Source: an uncultured Alphaproteobacteria bacterium
GTDB lineage: Bacteria; Pseudomonadota; Alphaproteobacteria; Rhodobacterales; Rhodobacteraceae
Direction of reading: 5' to 3'
Assembly (NCBI GenBank): GCA_902570265.1
Contig: CACFXF010000003.1
Location: 62,001 to 126,000, forward strand
Length of the DNA: 64,000 nt
Part shown: positions 23,991 through 32,481 of the stretch, piece by piece
Layout of the letters: every line of letters begins with the position of its first letter
Numbering within the stretch: position 1 is the first letter of the stretch
Program-made: the position numbers and the translations under genes
The notes under the pieces: model-generated
Seen by the model: the letters and a program-made list of their open reading frames with translations, nothing else
The model's database searches: none
Told to the model about the DNA's origin: nothing

Positions 23991-24650
23991 CTATTTAATT
24001 AATTCTTCAATACTATTTACCCATTTAATAAGCTTAACTTGTCGTTTAGATGTAATAGAAGGCATTTCTTTAATCATTTCACTTAAATCTTGAAATTCAT
24101 CAACATCTGTAAATATTTTTAACTTGTAAGGTTTAGGTTTCAGAGAGCGTACAAAAGTTTGTAAAGTTTTGGCACAACTCCAATCAGTATTTTCCCAAAC
24201 TTCTTTTTTGATATTAGATTTACTACCAATTAGATAAAATCCTCCATCAGTGGACGGGCCTATGATTTGATTATTTTTCTCAAGATACGTAAAGGCATTA
24301 TTGATAAATTTTTTACTTAATTGAGGAATGTCTATTCCTATAAGAATTACTGATTCATAAATTTGAAGTAATTCTTGAAATATGAAATTTTGCTTCTCTG
24401 CAATATTTTTTCCTTCAGCGAAAAAGGTATTAAATTCTTTCCAATAATCACTGGATACACCCTCTTTTTCAGCAGTGGCAATTTTAATATCGTAGTCAAG
24501 TTTTGATGTTAAATCCTCCAAACAATTTTTACATATCTCATAAAATATATGTGTATTTTTAATTCCTATTTTTGAAGATAATCTAGTTTTTACATCTGAA
24601 AGAAACGGTGTTTTTGCTAAGATAACTAAACATTTTTTCATTTTATTCAT
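23991..24650 (-). CDS. TIGR04282/DUF2064-type nucleotidyl/glycosyltransferase
   Basis: This 219-residue protein is of the GT-A-like DUF2064 family: LVILAKTPFLSDVKTRLSSKIG at the N-terminus (cut: AKTPFLSDVKTRLSS), ILIGIDIPQLSKK with the DxP motif and IGPSTDGGFYLIGSK. In databases this family is named TIGR04282 'rSAM/selenodomain-associated' or 'arsenosugar biosynthesis' transferase 1. It overlaps the partner TIGR04283 gene by 8 bases. The radical-SAM gene of the complete arsenosugar system is not in the window. Confidence 0.75.
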   Translation of the reverse strand: MNKMKKCLVILAKTPFLSDVKTRLSSKIGIKNTHIFYEICKNCLEDLTSKLDYDIKIATAEKEGVSSDYWKEFNTFFAEGKNIAEKQNFIFQELLQIYESVILIGIDIPQLSKKFINNAFTYLEKNNQIIGPSTDGGFYLIGSKSNIKKEVWENTDWSCAKTLQTFVRSLKPKPYKLKIFTDVDEFQDLSEMIKEMPSITSKRQVKLIKWVNSIEELIK

Positions 24651-25248
24651 TTCTTTTAAAATAAAAATTAAATAGTATCAAAAGTAGTCTCCATTGATGC
24701 TGTAAAGTTGTAATTAACCAACCATTATTTAAATATTTTCTTGAGCTAGTTATTATGTAATTTTGATTATTAAGGATAGATATTCCCATTTGCTTGAGTT
24801 TAAGAACAAAGTATAAGTCTTCACCATAATTTACATTTTCTGGGAATCCCCCTGTTTTCATAAAAAGTTTTCTTGATATACAAAACCCTTGGTCTCCATA
24901 AGGCAAAGAAAACAAAAAACTCCTTAAATTTGCTCCAATAGAATTTAATCTAAGAATTTTCCCTTTATCAAATTTTAGAGAAAAATAATACATCCCCTCT
25001 ACATTACAGACTTTTATGTAATTAATTAAATTTTCAATAGTGTCATCTTCAATTTTCGAATCTGCGTGTAAAAATAGGATATAATCGCTGGTTGTTTTTC
25101 TTACACCTTCGTTCAAACTTATAGCTCTGGTTTTTTTTGAAATAATAATTGGGATGTGACCTAAAGCTTCAAGATGGTTTGCTAAAGTTGAAGCATCATC
25201 TTGACTAAATTTTGGAATTACAATTTGTAAAAAATCAGAAACTGGCAT
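24643..25248 (-). CDS. TIGR04283-type family 2 glycosyltransferase
   Basis: This 201-residue GT2 protein has TRAISLNEGVRKTTSDYILF followed by LHADSKIEDD, which carries the DxD-like motif, and the downstream YGDQGFCISRKLFMKTGGFP and NYGEDLYFVLKLKQMG acceptor-site motifs. This is the TIGR04283 pattern. The N-terminus (LQIVIPKF) is a little shorter than usual. It is the first gene of a three-gene operon with the TIGR04282 partner and a hypothetical protein. It lies next to the integrated element. Confidence 0.75.
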   Translation of the reverse strand: MPVSDFLQIVIPKFSQDDASTLANHLEALGHIPIIISKKTRAISLNEGVRKTTSDYILFLHADSKIEDDTIENLINYIKVCNVEGMYYFSLKFDKGKILRLNSIGANLRSFLFSLPYGDQGFCISRKLFMKTGGFPENVNYGEDLYFVLKLKQMGISILNNQNYIITSSRKYLNNGWLITTLQHQWRLLLILFNFYFKRNE

Positions 25249-25313
25249 TTATGATTATTAAAAAAATATTGCTAAATACAAAAAAATCAATTTCAAAATA
25301 TGAATAAAAAAGA

Positions 25314-25358
25314 TGGAGCGGGCGATGAGATTCGAACTCACTACATTTACCTTGGCAA
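25314..25358 (-). repeat. displaced 3' half of tRNA-Gly, distal attachment site of integrated element
   Basis: These 45 bases match the 3' part of the complete tRNA-Gly at 26981-27025 with a single difference (25342 against 27009). The match covers the CCA end, the 3' acceptor strand, the T arm and stops inside the anticodon loop. No 5' half is present, so this is not a functional tRNA. It is best read as the original tRNA end pushed away when the element at 25359-26980 integrated. Confidence 0.85.
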
Positions 25359-25412
25359 TGGTATACTCGATAGACATATAGTCAATAAATTTTATAATTA
25401 AATATTTGATAA

Positions 25413-25985
25413 TTAATTTGCTTTTTTCATAAACCAAACTGCAGTTCCAATAATTTCAACTAATCCGTAATTAGGATCTATTTCTCCATAATCTGCAATT
25501 TCGGGATTTTCAGTTGTTAGATTTAATCTCATCGAAAGCGGATTCCAATTTGCTCGTGCTAAAAAATATTCAGAATCAGTCTTTAAAACTACTAAGCCAT
25601 TACTTCTGAAACTTTTAGGGACTGATTTGAATATGACAACATCATCTTGTTTAAGTGTAGGAGCCATTGAATCATCTAATATAACAAATCCGAATAAATC
25701 ATCATCAAATTGAATAAAAGGTAAATCTTTATCAATATGTATAAATTTTTTACCTTCTAATTTATTTATAATAGGTATTTCTAATAATCTTGGATGGTTA
25801 AATTCACCTATAATTTCAGATATTGATACATTCAAAACTTGGCTAAATTTTTTTAGTATCGGTATTGTCAATCGTTGATCTTGGTATTCATATCTACTTA
25901 TACTAGCAGGCGTAGTATTCATTTTATTAGCTAACTCTCTCTGGCTCATTTTTTTATCTATTCTGATTTCTTTTAATCTGTTCAT
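25413..25985 (-). CDS. CI-like phage repressor (XRE HTH plus S24-type domain)
   Basis: This 190-residue protein has an XRE helix-turn-helix (residues 2-60, with MSQRELANKMNTTPASISRY) and a C-terminal LexA/CI S24 domain with the nucleophile motif DDSMAPTL (Ser106). The usual catalytic lysine position (pattern TLKR) reads FLAR, with Ala143, so self-cleavage may be lost. ATG 25985 is chosen because AGGTGGAG lies 6 bases upstream; the in-frame GTG at 25997 overlaps that site. The upstream region holds palindromic half-sites that suggest autoregulation. It lies in the same orientation downstream of the integrase. Confidence 0.85.
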   Translation of the reverse strand: MNRLKEIRIDKKMSQRELANKMNTTPASISRYEYQDQRLTIPILKKFSQVLNVSISEIIGEFNHPRLLEIPIINKLEGKKFIHIDKDLPFIQFDDDLFGFVILDDSMAPTLKQDDVVIFKSVPKSFRSNGLVVLKTDSEYFLARANWNPLSMRLNLTTENPEIADYGEIDPNYGLVEIIGTAVWFMKKAN

Positions 25986-26020
25986 AAAAAACTCCACCTT
26001 TAAGGTTATTATTAATTCTA

Positions 26021-26088
26021 CAATGGTAATAAATATTTATTATATCAAACTAATTAATCTAATTGGTACACAATTACCATTTTGGTAA
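26021..26088 (-). promoter_or_regulatory. repressor promoter with operator half-sites
   Basis: On the minus strand a consensus TATAAT (26039-26044) lies about 45 bases before the repressor ribosome binding site, with a weak -35 ACCAAT 17 bases upstream. A perfect palindrome TTACCA-TTT-TGGTAA lies at 26074-26088, and further TGGTA half-sites lie at 26064-26068 (over the -35) and 26024-26028 (near the transcription start). The arrangement fits binding by the adjacent CI-like protein. Confidence 0.5.
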
Positions 26089-26101
26089 ACAAAATATATC
26101 A

Positions 26102-26902
26102 CTAATCTAACTTGTCAAGTAAATTTTCCGCTTTTAATTGTACATATCTTAACAAACATCTATGATCAGCGTGCCCTGATACCACCATCATTTCTGGAAT
26201 GGTAAAGCCTTTTTCTGCCAATCGACTGATGGCTTCGTGCCTTAAATCGTGGAATCTAAGGGATTTAACTGGCGGATATATCTTAGATGCTTGTCCTTTC
26301 CATCTTGCCCAAGCTAGACCTAAAGCGGTATTGCTCATGTTCAAAACTCTTAGGTTTCGCTGTTTCTGAAGCTGACGACAAATGGCAATGGTTTTGCTTG
26401 ACATCGGGATTTCTCTACCCTTCTTGGTCTTTGTTATTAGTGGTGGTAAAGATATAATTCTGCGTTCGAAATCAACCATATCCCAAGTTAAAGCTGACAA
26501 TTCATTTCTACGCATGGCAGTTTCAATCGCCAGATCGACAGCATGAATAATATTGCTCTCCCTTGGACGTAACGCATGGGTTTTCATTAAAGCTTGTCGA
26601 TCCAGTTGTGTCATCCTTCGATCTCTTTTTACATCCGCATTTTTAATAGGAACTTTTTTAAAGACCTTGGTTTTAAAACCAGCCAGCTTAAAAGATGCTT
26701 TTAAAACCTGAAATTCTTTGACGACAGTTGATGGTTTAATCCCTTCCCCTAATCGTTTCATTAGAAAATCTGTCAAAACTTTCTTATTTAGTTCATAATG
26801 TTTTACTCCTGAAAAATATGGCTTAACGACATTTGCCTTTATTCGCTTTGTGTAGTCGGTTTGCTGGCTAAATGTGTCTAAAAGTTCGGGTATGGTAATC
26901 AT
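26102..26902 (-). CDS. int: tyrosine recombinase / integrase
   Basis: This 266-residue site-specific recombinase has all catalytic residues: Arg131 in AMRRNEL, a Lys in ITKTKKGRE (about 158-161), His218 and Arg221 in FHDLRHEA, His244 in SGHADH and Tyr253 in LLRYVQL. The N-terminal core-binding region is short (about 90 residues) compared with usual phage integrases. It lies next to the tRNA-Gly attachment site, as expected for an integrase using a tRNA 3' end. Its base composition is higher in G+C than neighbours, pointing to transfer. It appears intact and could still be active. Confidence 0.92.
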   Translation of the reverse strand: MITIPELLDTFSQQTDYTKRIKANVVKPYFSGVKHYELNKKVLTDFLMKRLGEGIKPSTVVKEFQVLKASFKLAGFKTKVFKKVPIKNADVKRDRRMTQLDRQALMKTHALRPRESNIIHAVDLAIETAMRRNELSALTWDMVDFERRIISLPPLITKTKKGREIPMSSKTIAICRQLQKQRNLRVLNMSNTALGLAWARWKGQASKIYPPVKSLRFHDLRHEAISRLAEKGFTIPEMMVVSGHADHRCLLRYVQLKAENLLDKLD

Positions 26903-26980
26903 AAGTTTTTCCTTTTTTTGTTATTTAAAATCGAAAATGTTGGGTGGTTGGTTCACATCGATCCTAAATCAAAAGGATTC

Positions 26981-27055
26981 TGGAGCGGGCGATGAGATTC
27001 GAACTCACGACATTTACCTTGGCAAGGTAACGCTCTACCCCTGAGCTACGCCCGC
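26981..27055 (-). tRNA. tRNA-Gly(GCC)
   Basis: Read from 27055 down, the sequence folds as a complete tRNA: acceptor GCGGGCG/CGCCCGC, D stem GCTC/GAGC, anticodon stem TTACC/GGTAA with loop TTGCCAA (anticodon GCC), T stem and loop with TTCGAAT, discriminator T and an encoded CCA (26981-26983). Its 3' part serves as attachment site of the small integrated element that follows it. Confidence 0.97.
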
Positions 27056-27216
27056 TGATCAAAAACACATAACTTAAATTAAAATTAATGAAAAGCAAAA
27101 AATTCTATTCTTTCATAATCAAATTTTAATGATAAGCTATTGTAAAATTAAAAAATATGTAGAATTTAAGATTATAGTTCACAATAAAATATTAATAAAA
27201 ACCTTCATTAAATTAA

Positions 27217-28815
27217 ATGAAAAAAAGCAAAAAATTAAAATACTGGGGCTGGGGCTACGAAGAGACTACCCTTAATAAACAAGAAATAAAAAGCTTGCTA
27301 AACAAATTCTTCAAATATGGAATAGTAAGTTCAGATAAAAGATCTACACCACCCATTGAAAGTATTAATTTAAATAAGTCTAAAATAGAAATACCCCCAA
27401 ACTTAAAGTCTATAAGTACTGAAGATAAGTATCAGAGAATTCTTCACTCCTTTGGCCAATCTCAGCCCGATTCCATACGAACTTTTCAAAGTGATTTCAA
27501 GCATGCCCCAGATTTAGTTTCCTATCCAGAAAATGAAAATGATTTAATAACTTTGTATGACTTTTGTGAAAAATCAAATGTAGCCCTTATTCCTTATGGA
27601 GCCGGTTCCTCAGTAGTTGGTGGAGTAACGTCCGATGTGAGTAGTAAATATAATGGGACAATAAGTGTTAATTTGTCAAAATTTAATAAGGTACTTGAGG
27701 TAGACGATGTAAGTCTTTCCGCAAAAATACAAGGAGGTATTCGAGGACCAGATTTGGAAAGGAGTTTAAAAAACTATGGATTAACTCTTAGGCACTTCCC
27801 TCAAAGTTTTGAGCACTCTACTTTAGGCGGATGGATAGCAACACGTTCAGGTGGGCATTTTGCAACTCTTTACACTCATATTGATGATTTAGTAGAAAAT
27901 ATTTCAATGATTTCTCCTAATGGGAAAATGAATTCTTTACGAGTCCCCGGGTCAGGAGCTGGACCGAGTCCTGATCGTTTTATGCTGGGATCTGAAGGAT
28001 CAATGGGAATCATTACAGATGCGTGGGTTAAACTTCAAAAAAAACCAAAATTTAAAGCTACAGCTGGATATCTTTTTTCTGATTTTTTATCTGCAGCTCA
28101 AGCTGTTAGATCAATATCACAAGCTGGTCTTTATCCTGCCAATGTAAGAATAGTAGATGAGGTAGAACTTGATATCAATTCCGCGAGTAAAGATTCCTAC
28201 ACACTAATGGTTATCTCTTTTGAAAACGCTGATCACGAAATAGAGCCTTGGATATCTAGAGCAGAAGAGTGTTGTTTAGATCATGGTGGAATAAAAGATG
28301 TTGACTGGAGAAACAACCCACTTTCTAATCAGCACGGTGTGGTAGGGGCTTGGAGAGAAGCTTTTATAAAAATGCCCTATAACAGAGAAGAACTAACACC
28401 TAGAAATATAATATCTGATACTTTTGAGACCTCAATTACATGGGAAAAATTTGATAATTTTTACCATAGTGTCAAAAATACTACCGAGTTAGCAATTAAA
28501 ACAATAACAGGAAAATCTGGAGCAGTATCATGTAGGTTTAGTCATTCTTATCCTAATGGTCCAGCTCCTTATTTTGCATTTCATGCCAATAGTTCTGAAA
28601 AAACTATGTTGGAGGATTGGTTACAAATAAAAAAAGCAGCTTCAGATGCTGTTCATAAATTTGGTGGGACAATTACTCATCACCATGCTATTGGCAGAGA
28701 CCATTCACATTGGTATAAAAAGCAACGACCAAATGATTTTGGGGAAATACTAAGTAATGCTAAAGAATATCTAGACCCTAAATTCATAATGAATCCTGGT
28801 GTCATAGTCGATTAA
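27217..28815 (+). CDS. FAD-binding oxidoreductase, alkyl-DHAP synthase-like
   Basis: This 532-residue flavoprotein of the FAD/PCMH (GlcD/AGPS) family opens with KYWGWGYEE, the N-terminal signature of alkyldihydroxyacetonephosphate synthase. The FAD-binding loop PYGAGSSVVGGVT is near residue 127, with HSTLGGWIATRSGG and LGSEGSMGIITDAWVK after it. The C-terminal THHHAIGRDHSHWY resembles the His-rich active-site loop of AGPS. The bacterial reaction is uncertain: ether-lipid synthesis or oxidation of a 2-hydroxy acid are both possible. It is a single gene next to the tRNA. Confidence 0.8.
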   Translation: MKKSKKLKYWGWGYEETTLNKQEIKSLLNKFFKYGIVSSDKRSTPPIESINLNKSKIEIPPNLKSISTEDKYQRILHSFGQSQPDSIRTFQSDFKHAPDLVSYPENENDLITLYDFCEKSNVALIPYGAGSSVVGGVTSDVSSKYNGTISVNLSKFNKVLEVDDVSLSAKIQGGIRGPDLERSLKNYGLTLRHFPQSFEHSTLGGWIATRSGGHFATLYTHIDDLVENISMISPNGKMNSLRVPGSGAGPSPDRFMLGSEGSMGIITDAWVKLQKKPKFKATAGYLFSDFLSAAQAVRSISQAGLYPANVRIVDEVELDINSASKDSYTLMVISFENADHEIEPWISRAEECCLDHGGIKDVDWRNNPLSNQHGVVGAWREAFIKMPYNREELTPRNIISDTFETSITWEKFDNFYHSVKNTTELAIKTITGKSGAVSCRFSHSYPNGPAPYFAFHANSSEKTMLEDWLQIKKAASDAVHKFGGTITHHHAIGRDHSHWYKKQRPNDFGEILSNAKEYLDPKFIMNPGVIVD

Positions 28816-29677: not shown

Positions 29678-30850
29678 TTAAGTCAAAATTTCTTTAGGTA
29701 AATTTTTATTTGTATCAAAAAAAGGTAGGTCTTTAACTTCACATTCACAAAAATTATTCTCTTCGTTTTTCACAAAAAATTTCTTACCTACCCATTCTAT
29801 TTTTTTTGAAAATTTCACATAACCTATGCCAGATTTGAATTGTGGAGAGTATGTACCTGTTGTAATCAAACCCACAGGTTTTTTTTTAGCATCATACATG
29901 ATAAATCCTCCTTTTGGAATAATAGCATTTGATATAATTCCAAATAGTAGTTTATGCTTTGGTAAATTTACTAATTTATCTTTTCCAATAAAAAATTTTT
30001 TCTTTAGGTCAATAAAATTACCTAGTCCAACTTCATATGGATTGTCATATGTACTAAAATCACTACCACAATCTAAGATACCAGCTTCAATTCTTCTTAT
30101 ATTCATAGCTTGCATACTAGAAATTTTTAAATCATAATTTTTACCACCTTCTAAAATATCACTCCATAATTTTTTATAATTTGTATTTTTGCAAAAAGTA
30201 TAAATCTCATAACCCAATTCACCCGTCCAACCAGTTCTAGAAATATAAACGAGTTGGGAATTAATCTTAAAAAATCCCGCACTAAAATAACTAAATTTTG
30301 AATCTATTTCACCTTCTGTTAACTGATTCAATATCTTGTAGGAATTGGGTCCCTGAATTTGTAAAACTCTTGAATTAGGCTCATTGATTTTAATTTGATA
30401 ATTTTGTTTATGAGCTAAAAGCCAGGTATGCATATCACCATCAGGCTGTACAAACCAAAAACACTTCTCTGATAACCTAAATAAAATACCATCCATAAAA
30501 ATATTTCCCTCATGGGTTAAAGCGGTTACATAAATACCTCTACCGATTTTAAGTTTGGATATTTGTCTTGGAAATATTTTATCCAGAAAAAGAATTACTT
30601 CTGGACCTGTAATTTCTAATGGACGTTCAGGTGTATCACAAATTATGGCGGATTTTCTTAATGCCCAGTAAGTTTGATTTATATCTTCACCATTATAATG
30701 AGCATAAAGTCTTCCACCACAATTTCTAAGAATAGTTTTTTTATTGCAATAAAAAGGGTGAAAAGGTGAAAGTCCAGAATTACCACTAAAGACTTTAAAA
30801 ACTTTTTTTTGGTCAATTTTAAACTTTAATTCCATTAAAGAATAAATCAT
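29678..30850 (-). CDS. GcvT-like folate-dependent aminomethyltransferase/demethylase (paralogue 1)
   Basis: This 390-residue protein is of the GcvT/DmdA superfamily, whose members pass a methyl or aminomethyl carbon to tetrahydrofolate. Recognisable blocks are FMDGILFRL, VLQIQGPNSYKIL, ISRTGWTGELGYEIY and RRIEAGILD, with the C-terminal barrel from about residue 290. It is clearly paralogous to the gene at 31282-32481. Its ATG overlaps the VOC-protein stop as ATGA, so it is translationally coupled. DMSP, betaine or TMAO-type substrates are all conceivable; the sequence does not decide. Confidence 0.8.
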   Translation of the reverse strand: MIYSLMELKFKIDQKKVFKVFSGNSGLSPFHPFYCNKKTILRNCGGRLYAHYNGEDINQTYWALRKSAIICDTPERPLEITGPEVILFLDKIFPRQISKLKIGRGIYVTALTHEGNIFMDGILFRLSEKCFWFVQPDGDMHTWLLAHKQNYQIKINEPNSRVLQIQGPNSYKILNQLTEGEIDSKFSYFSAGFFKINSQLVYISRTGWTGELGYEIYTFCKNTNYKKLWSDILEGGKNYDLKISSMQAMNIRRIEAGILDCGSDFSTYDNPYEVGLGNFIDLKKKFFIGKDKLVNLPKHKLLFGIISNAIIPKGGFIMYDAKKKPVGLITTGTYSPQFKSGIGYVKFSKKIEWVGKKFFVKNEENNFCECEVKDLPFFDTNKNLPKEILT

Positions 30851-31281: not shown

Positions 31282-32481
31282 TTAGTAAGCATCATACTGA
31301 AAATCATTAGAAATTGTTGGGATTGATTTATCAATTCCCTTGATTATTTTTTTCTCTTTATCAAAAAATGGTAAGTCCACAATTTCTGCAGTATGAAATT
31401 CTCCATTAGGTAAAGAAAGTTTTAGCTGTTTACCTTGCCACTCTTTACCTTTTAAAAATCTTGCATACCCAATTCCAAGACCTAAAGTTGGTGAAGGAAC
31501 ACCAGCAGTAACGTAACCTACTTCTTCATTGCCATCCAAAATTTTACTTCCTGATGATGGTGTAGCTGTTTTACAAGTTAACCCATATAAAAGAACATTT
31601 TTTTCTTTTTTTAATAATGCTTTTTTTCCTATAAAATCTTCTTTATCTAAATCAACAACAAAAGATAATCCTGCTTCAAAAGGAGACATATTAACGTCCA
31701 TATCTGTTGTATTACCAAGGATCCCACCTTCTATCCTTCTTATAGTTAAGGCTCTTGTAGATGAAAATTCCATACCATAATTTTGACCAATTGACATTAA
31801 ATGATCCCAAAGAGCCAAATGATCTGTTTTATAACCATCACAATAAATTTCATAGCCTAACTCACCAGTAAAGCCTGATCTGGAAACATAAAGATTCTGT
31901 CCATTAAAATTAAAAAAACCAGAACTATAATATTTCATTGCTTCAGTTATTTGACCATCTGTTGCATCCTGCATGATATTTAGTGAAGCTGGTCCTTGTA
32001 TCTGAATTACTCTAGATTTTGGATCGCTGATTTCAACATCAAAACCCTCACTATGTGCTAATAACCACGTTTCAAAAGGACCATCCGCTTGTACATACCA
32101 AAAATGATTTTCATCAAATCTAAAGACAACACCATCCATAAAAATACCACCCTTGGGAGTACATGCCATTGCATAATAACCTCGTCCAATTTTCATATTT
32201 GATATTTTTCTGGTAAGAACTTTATCAAGGAACTTAACAGCATCAGACCCCTTTATTTCAATCGGTTTTTCGGGAACATCAAAAATTAACGCTTTTTGTC
32301 TAAGTGTCCAATACTTTAGTATGGGGTCTTCCCCCATATATACTGCTTGAAAACGATTTGCATAAACACCTCTAATCATTTTAGAAGTATCATGCCTTTC
32401 AATAAATGGAGATTCTTCAAATCTCCTTGCACTTATTTCAACTGTATTTAATAAATCTTTTTCTTCTTGAAGGTTAATCAT
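31282..32481 (-). CDS. GcvT-like folate-dependent aminomethyltransferase/demethylase (paralogue 2)
   Basis: This 399-residue GcvT-superfamily protein has IFMDGVVFRFDENHFWYV, VIQIQGPASLNIM, SRSGFTGELGYEIY and RRIEGGILGNTTDMD in the THF-binding core. It is close in sequence to the gene two positions downstream, so the pair arose by duplication. It follows the molybdoenzyme gene by 33 bases. A cytoplasmic demethylase feeding methyl groups to tetrahydrofolate is the most likely role. Confidence 0.8.
   Translation of the reverse strand: MINLQEEKDLLNTVEISARRFEESPFIERHDTSKMIRGVYANRFQAVYMGEDPILKYWTLRQKALIFDVPEKPIEIKGSDAVKFLDKVLTRKISNMKIGRGYYAMACTPKGGIFMDGVVFRFDENHFWYVQADGPFETWLLAHSEGFDVEISDPKSRVIQIQGPASLNIMQDATDGQITEAMKYYSSGFFNFNGQNLYVSRSGFTGELGYEIYCDGYKTDHLALWDHLMSIGQNYGMEFSSTRALTIRRIEGGILGNTTDMDVNMSPFEAGLSFVVDLDKEDFIGKKALLKKEKNVLLYGLTCKTATPSSGSKILDGNEEVGYVTAGVPSPTLGLGIGYARFLKGKEWQGKQLKLSLPNGEFHTAEIVDLPFFDKEKKIIKGIDKSIPTISNDFQYDAY

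Follow-up and report, generated by a model that had tools for sequence, protein, structure and literature searches.

Is the short element beside the tRNA-Gly gene of this genome an integrative unit that is minimal by nature, or is it what remains of a larger phage? The window, by which we mean the whole 64,000-nucleotide stretch of DNA that was analysed (G000:C3:62001-126000), belongs to a draft genome, G000, of 2.16 Mb in 87 contigs that is 81% complete and whose host is probably a marine bacterium. The window contains one tRNA gene, tRNA-Gly(gcc), at 26981-27055 on the minus strand (ARAGORN), and the 3' 45 bp of this intact gene recur 1.7 kb away as an orphan tRNA 3' end. The element is very probably a deletion remnant of a prophage, a reading that includes a presumed grounded (stuck) state and a putative present immunity role for the repressor.

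Layout of the element at tRNA-Gly(GCC)

The two copies of the direct repeat, at 25314-25358 and 26981-27025, are identical at 44 of 45 positions with a spacing of 1667, exactly as given in a preliminary description of this DNA, and a match of 45 bp is far beyond chance. The identity had been said to end inside the anticodon loop, and it does stop just 5' of the anticodon GCC within that loop. The sole mismatch is at position 25342, where a T in the orphan copy stands against the G shared by the tRNA, the empty site and four phage cores. The features of the locus are as follows.

26981..27055, minus strand: intact tRNA-Gly(GCC), of which 26981-27025 is the tRNA-side attachment core (ARAGORN, the repeat, identity to phage attP cores)
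26903..26980, minus strand: arm from the core to the integrase start, near-identical in L089/L090 (side-by-side sequences, BLAST)
26102..26902, minus strand: tyrosine integrase, 266 aa (Pfam, PHROGs, alignment)
26074..26088, no strand assigned: perfect palindrome TTACCATTTTGGTAA, putative repressor operator
25413..25997, minus strand: CI-like repressor, 194 aa from GTG (Pfam, PHROGs, alignment)
25359..25412, no strand assigned: residual arm from the repressor stop to the orphan core, 54 bp
25314..25358, minus strand: orphan attachment core, tRNA-Gly 3' end, 44/45, adjoining the host glycosyltransferase gene

Only two ORFs of at least 60 aa lie between the repeat copies, both on the minus strand and separated by 104 bp, in agreement with the earlier account of a complete tyrosine integrase and a CI-like repressor, and nothing else, at an intact tRNA-Gly. 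The orphan core directly follows the repressor gene with no phage genes in between; the first base beyond it, 25359 (T), agrees with the phage contigs described below and differs from the tRNA. The G+C content of the element (32.4%) is close to that of the window (31.8%). ICEs and IMEs carry relaxase or conjugation genes; none was present between the cores, where the integrase and repressor are the only ORFs of at least 60 aa, and an assignment to either class was rejected. Elsewhere in the window, the translations of ORFs 29678-30850 and 31282-32481 are similar by eye and may be paralogues.

The integrase matches the Pfam family Phage_integrase (E 1e-19). Arg131/132, His218-x-x-Arg221, His244 and Tyr253, which we take to be the catalytic set of tyrosine recombinases, are all present, and none of them varies when the protein is aligned with two relatives from phages, L090 (85% identical) and L091 (83%). 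Between the window's integrase gene and these two, dN was 0.11 in both comparisons and dS was 0.80 and 1.0, values that mainly reflect phage history. Matches in IMG/VR comprised five contigs at 75-85% amino acid identity and two unrelated contigs at 28-36%, and all of the 207 named phage records that matched were below 60% identity. One match in a named genome, a Nautiliaceae MAG at 25% identity, was set aside as uninformative.

Close relatives of the integrase were not found in samples of 394 family genomes (393 genera) and 385 class genomes, with at most six candidates scored per genome. At E 1e-25, 7 family and 12 class genomes matched, G000 included, and the best match outside G000 scored 121 bits vs. 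589 bits. The best matches within the genus, at 35-37% identity, were encoded on other contigs in G008 and G009. These two proteins, L002 from G009 (321 aa, 37% identical to the window's) and L004 from G008 (318 aa, 35%), are tyrosine integrases whose 3.5-kb loci show no further evident phage genes, and one of the two loci is near a tRNA-Phe.

The attachment site in genus relatives

The site was located in relatives by means of the glycosyltransferase and FAD-oxidase genes on either side of it. Seven of the 11 other genus genomes could be read at this locus, tRNA included (G001, G002, G005, G006, G008, G009, and G010); the comparison did not extend to G011, whose contig ends before the tRNA, or to G003, G004 and G007, which had no glycosyltransferase match. 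The element's integrase was absent at the locus in all seven relatives. Six of the seven had a single copy of the tRNA 3' end in a search with its last 28 bases that allowed up to seven mismatches. In G005 and G006, the tRNA lies between both flanking genes with no element, and in G009 it adjoins the glycosyltransferase gene, with one 456-aa ORF on the other side. When the window's two flanks were joined, they were identical to G009 across the tRNA at 828 of 868 positions. The empty site that the preliminary description proposed to look for, with one tRNA and no element, was thus present in G009, G005, and G006.

Over window positions 24601-28300, identity to G009 (L081) is about 95% from the glycosyltransferase gene up to and including the tRNA and about 80% towards the FAD-oxidase gene, a shift that suggests a recombination breakpoint near the tRNA. 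The site is variable within the genus, since G001 and G002 hold other genes between the tRNA and the glycosyltransferase gene, as does G010. In G001 and G002 (L083 and L084), these appear, from reading the ORFs, to be a transporter-like operon and a lyase-like gene. A transporter had its best match on a Pseudohalocynthiibacter plasmid (50%), and the host is probably a member of the Rhodobacteraceae. In G010, a 490-aa ORF beside the tRNA has an N-terminus like that of the ankyrin-repeat protein of G008, and no scar was seen there.

The seventh relative, G008, differs. At the same place it carries a decayed orphan core (40/45, with one gap and four mismatches), and the DNA between this core and the tRNA encodes an ankyrin-repeat protein of 754 aa that also has SH3 domains (L082, G008:C13:31500-39500). 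An old insertion shared by the two genomes, with the decayed core of G008 deriving from the same event, could account for the common position but is unlikely: the sequence beyond the G008 core differs by eye, the contents differ, and the window's copy is less decayed (44/45). The preliminary description had also counted an orphan core in a relative lacking the integrase against its proposal, and the decayed G008 copy is in part such a case. In our view it does not overturn the reading of the element as an inserted and later reduced prophage because G009, G005, and G006 are empty and the flank and contents of G008 differ by eye.

Related phage contigs and the probable deletion

The nearest relatives of the element are phage contigs with many more genes. 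Five IMG/VR contigs bear a related integrase (3300020413_000190, 3300020416_001531, 3300020457_001568, 3300030104_006102, and 3300029448_008236) and a further contig, 3300020411_003083, covers the repressor side only. These contigs, presumably of marine origin, are fragments, the longest of 14 kb. In all five, the related integrase is followed by a related repressor in the same order and orientation as in the window. The exact 45-bp core, with no mismatches, lies directly upstream of the integrase gene in L089, L090, L091, and L093, and a variant core (listed by accession for 3300029448_008236) is found in L119. From core to integrase, the window and L090 differ very little.

Beyond these shared parts, the contigs hold further phage genes. 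On the other side of attP are an HTH gene and late genes, including a tail lysozyme gene in L089 and L091 (in L091 by Pfam). Downstream of the repressor, L091 has nucleotide-kinase-like, Holliday-resolvase-like and HTH genes and, farther on, a Sak4-like gene. The nucleotide-kinase-like gene follows the repressor in six of six contigs with a full-length repressor relative, with the PHROG test covering the L091 copy. Between the integrase and the repressor, L089, L090, L091, and L119 have a gene of 119, 134 or 162 aa (L090:3070-3429, L091:7896-8300, and L119:1195-1683) that is a candidate excision or switch factor; Pfam searches with its L090 and L091 copies and a PHROG search with its L091 copy found nothing. 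An 845-aa late protein (A1, with a relative in L089) fell into no Pfam or PHROG family, and two late proteins had no match among 50,697 phage records. A small protein matched, at 43% identity, the acetyltransferase that Octadecabacter Antarctic DB virus 2 encodes.

The position of the orphan core right after the repressor, where the relatives have further phage genes in all six contigs, points to a deletion remnant rather than a naturally minimal element. Of the two origins that the preliminary description had offered, a deletion remnant is therefore the one favoured and a genuinely minimal mobile unit is the one left unsupported. A temperate tailed phage would have used its own 45-bp attP core to enter the 3' end of tRNA-Gly(GCC), so that one side regained a whole tRNA and the other was left with the orphan 3' end. 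A later deletion would then have removed most of the phage, together with the small gene between integrase and repressor, leaving an attachment core, the integrase, the repressor with its putative operator, and the second attachment core in a presumably grounded state. Against a grounded state, neither the two cores nor the integrase shows visible damage. The deletion scar presumably lies within or beside the residual arm at 25359..25412; a phage with this variant of the repressor, which would allow the deletion ends to be mapped, was not found.

The same contigs bear on an integrative element or satellite that is truly minimal and moves by its integrase with a helper phage. The intact attachment cores and integrase are compatible with this, and possible helper phages share the core and the palindrome. 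We nevertheless regard it as improbable, and it was rejected as a first choice: the close phage relatives are all larger, the short form was seen in none of the five integrase-bearing viral contigs, no second copy appeared in the 394 family and 385 class genomes (up to six candidates scored in each), and there is no third ORF of at least 60 aa. The far arm also differs from those of the phages. In three phages this arm has two, four and two TTCTAAT boxes, compared to means of 0.16, 0.13, and 0.07 in shuffled sequence, whereas the 57-bp far arm of the window has none; the motif was chosen by eye and three copies lie inside the window's two genes, and the lack of boxes is only a hint. Alignments of the whole residual arm to those of the phages did not exceed the level of shuffled sequence.

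When IMG/VR was scanned for exact copies of 39 bp of the core, 20 stretches matched. Their identity to the tRNA extended over exactly 45 bp in 14 of the 20, 49-52 bp in three, and the whole tRNA in three; a length of 45 bp is what insertions at this tRNA-Gly site leave. An integrase of the window's type was found in four of the 20 (tblastn), and so other viruses also seem to use the site.

The missing phage genes could in principle be present in the cell and lost from the contig by mis-joining, as the draft consists of 87 contigs. Such an assembly artefact is very improbable: the contig keeps host synteny on both sides, and A1, Sak4 and the tail lysozyme were not found elsewhere in G000, although its 81% completeness limits the weight of these absences. 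In the wider searches, A1 was found in none of 12 genus genomes (three phage-record controls were recovered, two of which had built the profile), Sak4 in none of eight (its source contig was recovered as a control and fragment L098 was not), and the L091 tail lysozyme in none of eight (the source was recovered, and L089 at 51%).

As a relic, the remnant is of an ordinary kind, a grounded prophage, and it is equally ordinary as a mobile element. Grounded, cryptic and defective prophages are reportedly also treated by Bobay et al. 2014, a reference of PMC8224337. A review describes such prophages as integrated phages with attachment sites that have lost genes, with immunity proposed as a benefit (PMC6379469); the element resembles them in this and differs in being reduced to two genes with an apparently intact integrase and cores. 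PICMI satellites are likewise very small integrative units with an integrase, but they need int, alpA and a primase and sit by fis (PMC10803314); this assignment was rejected, since the element has only two ORFs, lacks alpA and primase, and is at tRNA-Gly. CRP-810-type roseophages, which are temperate and belong to a marine Roseobacter lineage, have tRNA-Thr as their integration site, with a 13-bp core (PMC11288001); they are like the present phages in using a tRNA gene, here tRNA-Gly with a 45-bp core, and are likened by site and not by gene content. No papers on the element were found in searches of open-licence papers, and passages of PMC9934374 contain no case of this kind.

The repressor, its putative operator and predicted immunity

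The repressor combines an HTH_3 domain (E 9.9e-13) with a Peptidase_S24 domain (E 3.5e-6), both by Pfam, and, to judge by the alignment, its start may be an internal ATG (Met5, about 25985). It matched six IMG/VR contigs at 44-51% identity; a seventh, L122, matched at residues 6-36 only and is excluded from the counts. In an alignment with three phage relatives, identity was 50, 46, and 51%, and it was concentrated in the HTH domain (44-49 of 61 residues identical, compared to 44-46 of 127 in the C-terminal domain). Among the matches listed to solved structures, the alignments cover the HTH part.

Upstream of the repressor is the perfect palindrome TTACCAnnnTGGTAA, whose copy at 26074-26088 is the sole perfect one in G000. 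Only two sites occur in the 12 genus genomes, the G009 copy being inside a 530-aa ORF. A control in which the palindrome's letters were reversed gave 13 sites across these 12 genomes, including one in G000; such a site can therefore arise by chance, and the case for an operator rests on position and on the phage match rather than on the count. A promoter scan of the element was no more telling (eight sites vs. 9.3 in shuffles) and gave no terminator.

The phage match came from the pattern TTGAC-N4-ATTACCA-N3-TGGTAA, a -35-like hexamer with the palindrome, which was found in 13 IMG/VR stretches. It is present in all five contigs of the phage group that reach the presumed early region; L089 ends short of this region. 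The copy in L119 is the exact reverse complement of the window's. Of the other eight stretches, five have the pattern inside an ORF (L138, L139, L141, L144, and L146), one is unplaced (L140), and two have it upstream of an ORF (L142:1628-1652 and L143:1862-1886). L142 and L143 may be other phages with a like operator, and operators of this type may extend beyond the present phage group. Both have genes distantly related (36-37%) to the resolvase or HTH gene.

The repressor would bind TTACCAnnnTGGTAA at its own promoter. In an incoming related phage, it would bind the same palindrome and thereby cover the presumed early promoter, so that cross-immunity to superinfection is predicted. Retained superinfection immunity is our best functional guess from the sequences. 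A different arrangement, the integration-dependent immunity of mycobacteriophage BPs, also has integrase and repressor as neighbours close to the attachment site, but there attP lies inside the repressor gene (PMC4557955). It was rejected here: in the phages the core is upstream of the integrase gene, and the window's repressor ORF is uninterrupted.

The deletion reading also has a stronger version, compatible with it, in which the same remnant has been domesticated and is kept by selection as the repressor blocks co-circulating phages. The preliminary description had proposed an element kept for its repressor; the role is plausible given the shared operator-like palindrome, and the selection part is still conjectural. 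The perfect palindrome is retained, the same palindrome is present in presumed phage early promoters, the HTH is conserved and both ORFs are intact. On the other hand, drift alone could have left both ORFs unbroken after a recent deletion, the integrase, dispensable for immunity, is likewise intact, and the element is in none of the seven relatives read at the site. We hold domestication to be possible, but only tentatively.

How much the intact ORFs tell depends on age. The orphan core has one change in 45 (95% range 0.06-12%), and the 65-bp spacer beside it has nine mismatches and a gap relative to G009. At 1/45, the two ORFs together should have gained about 1.7 stop-making changes, with a probability of 0.19 that none occurs; at 7.5%, this probability is 0.004. 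Since the chance of escaping stops by drift depends on age, the intact ORFs would hint at selection only in an old remnant. The fullest version, that a prophage in a small AT-rich genome was reduced to a self-contained immunity cassette in which the integrase and cores simply accompany operator and repressor, and which selection keeps as it silences co-circulating phages through the shared palindrome, is in our view rather doubtful.

Under the preferred reading, a deletion remnant of a prophage, the integration site and the presumed immunity operator tie the host lineage to temperate phages found only as IMG/VR contigs. The remnant may still protect the cell, and if the repressor still works, the locus would be a compact case of a cell that keeps phage immunity while discarding the phage.
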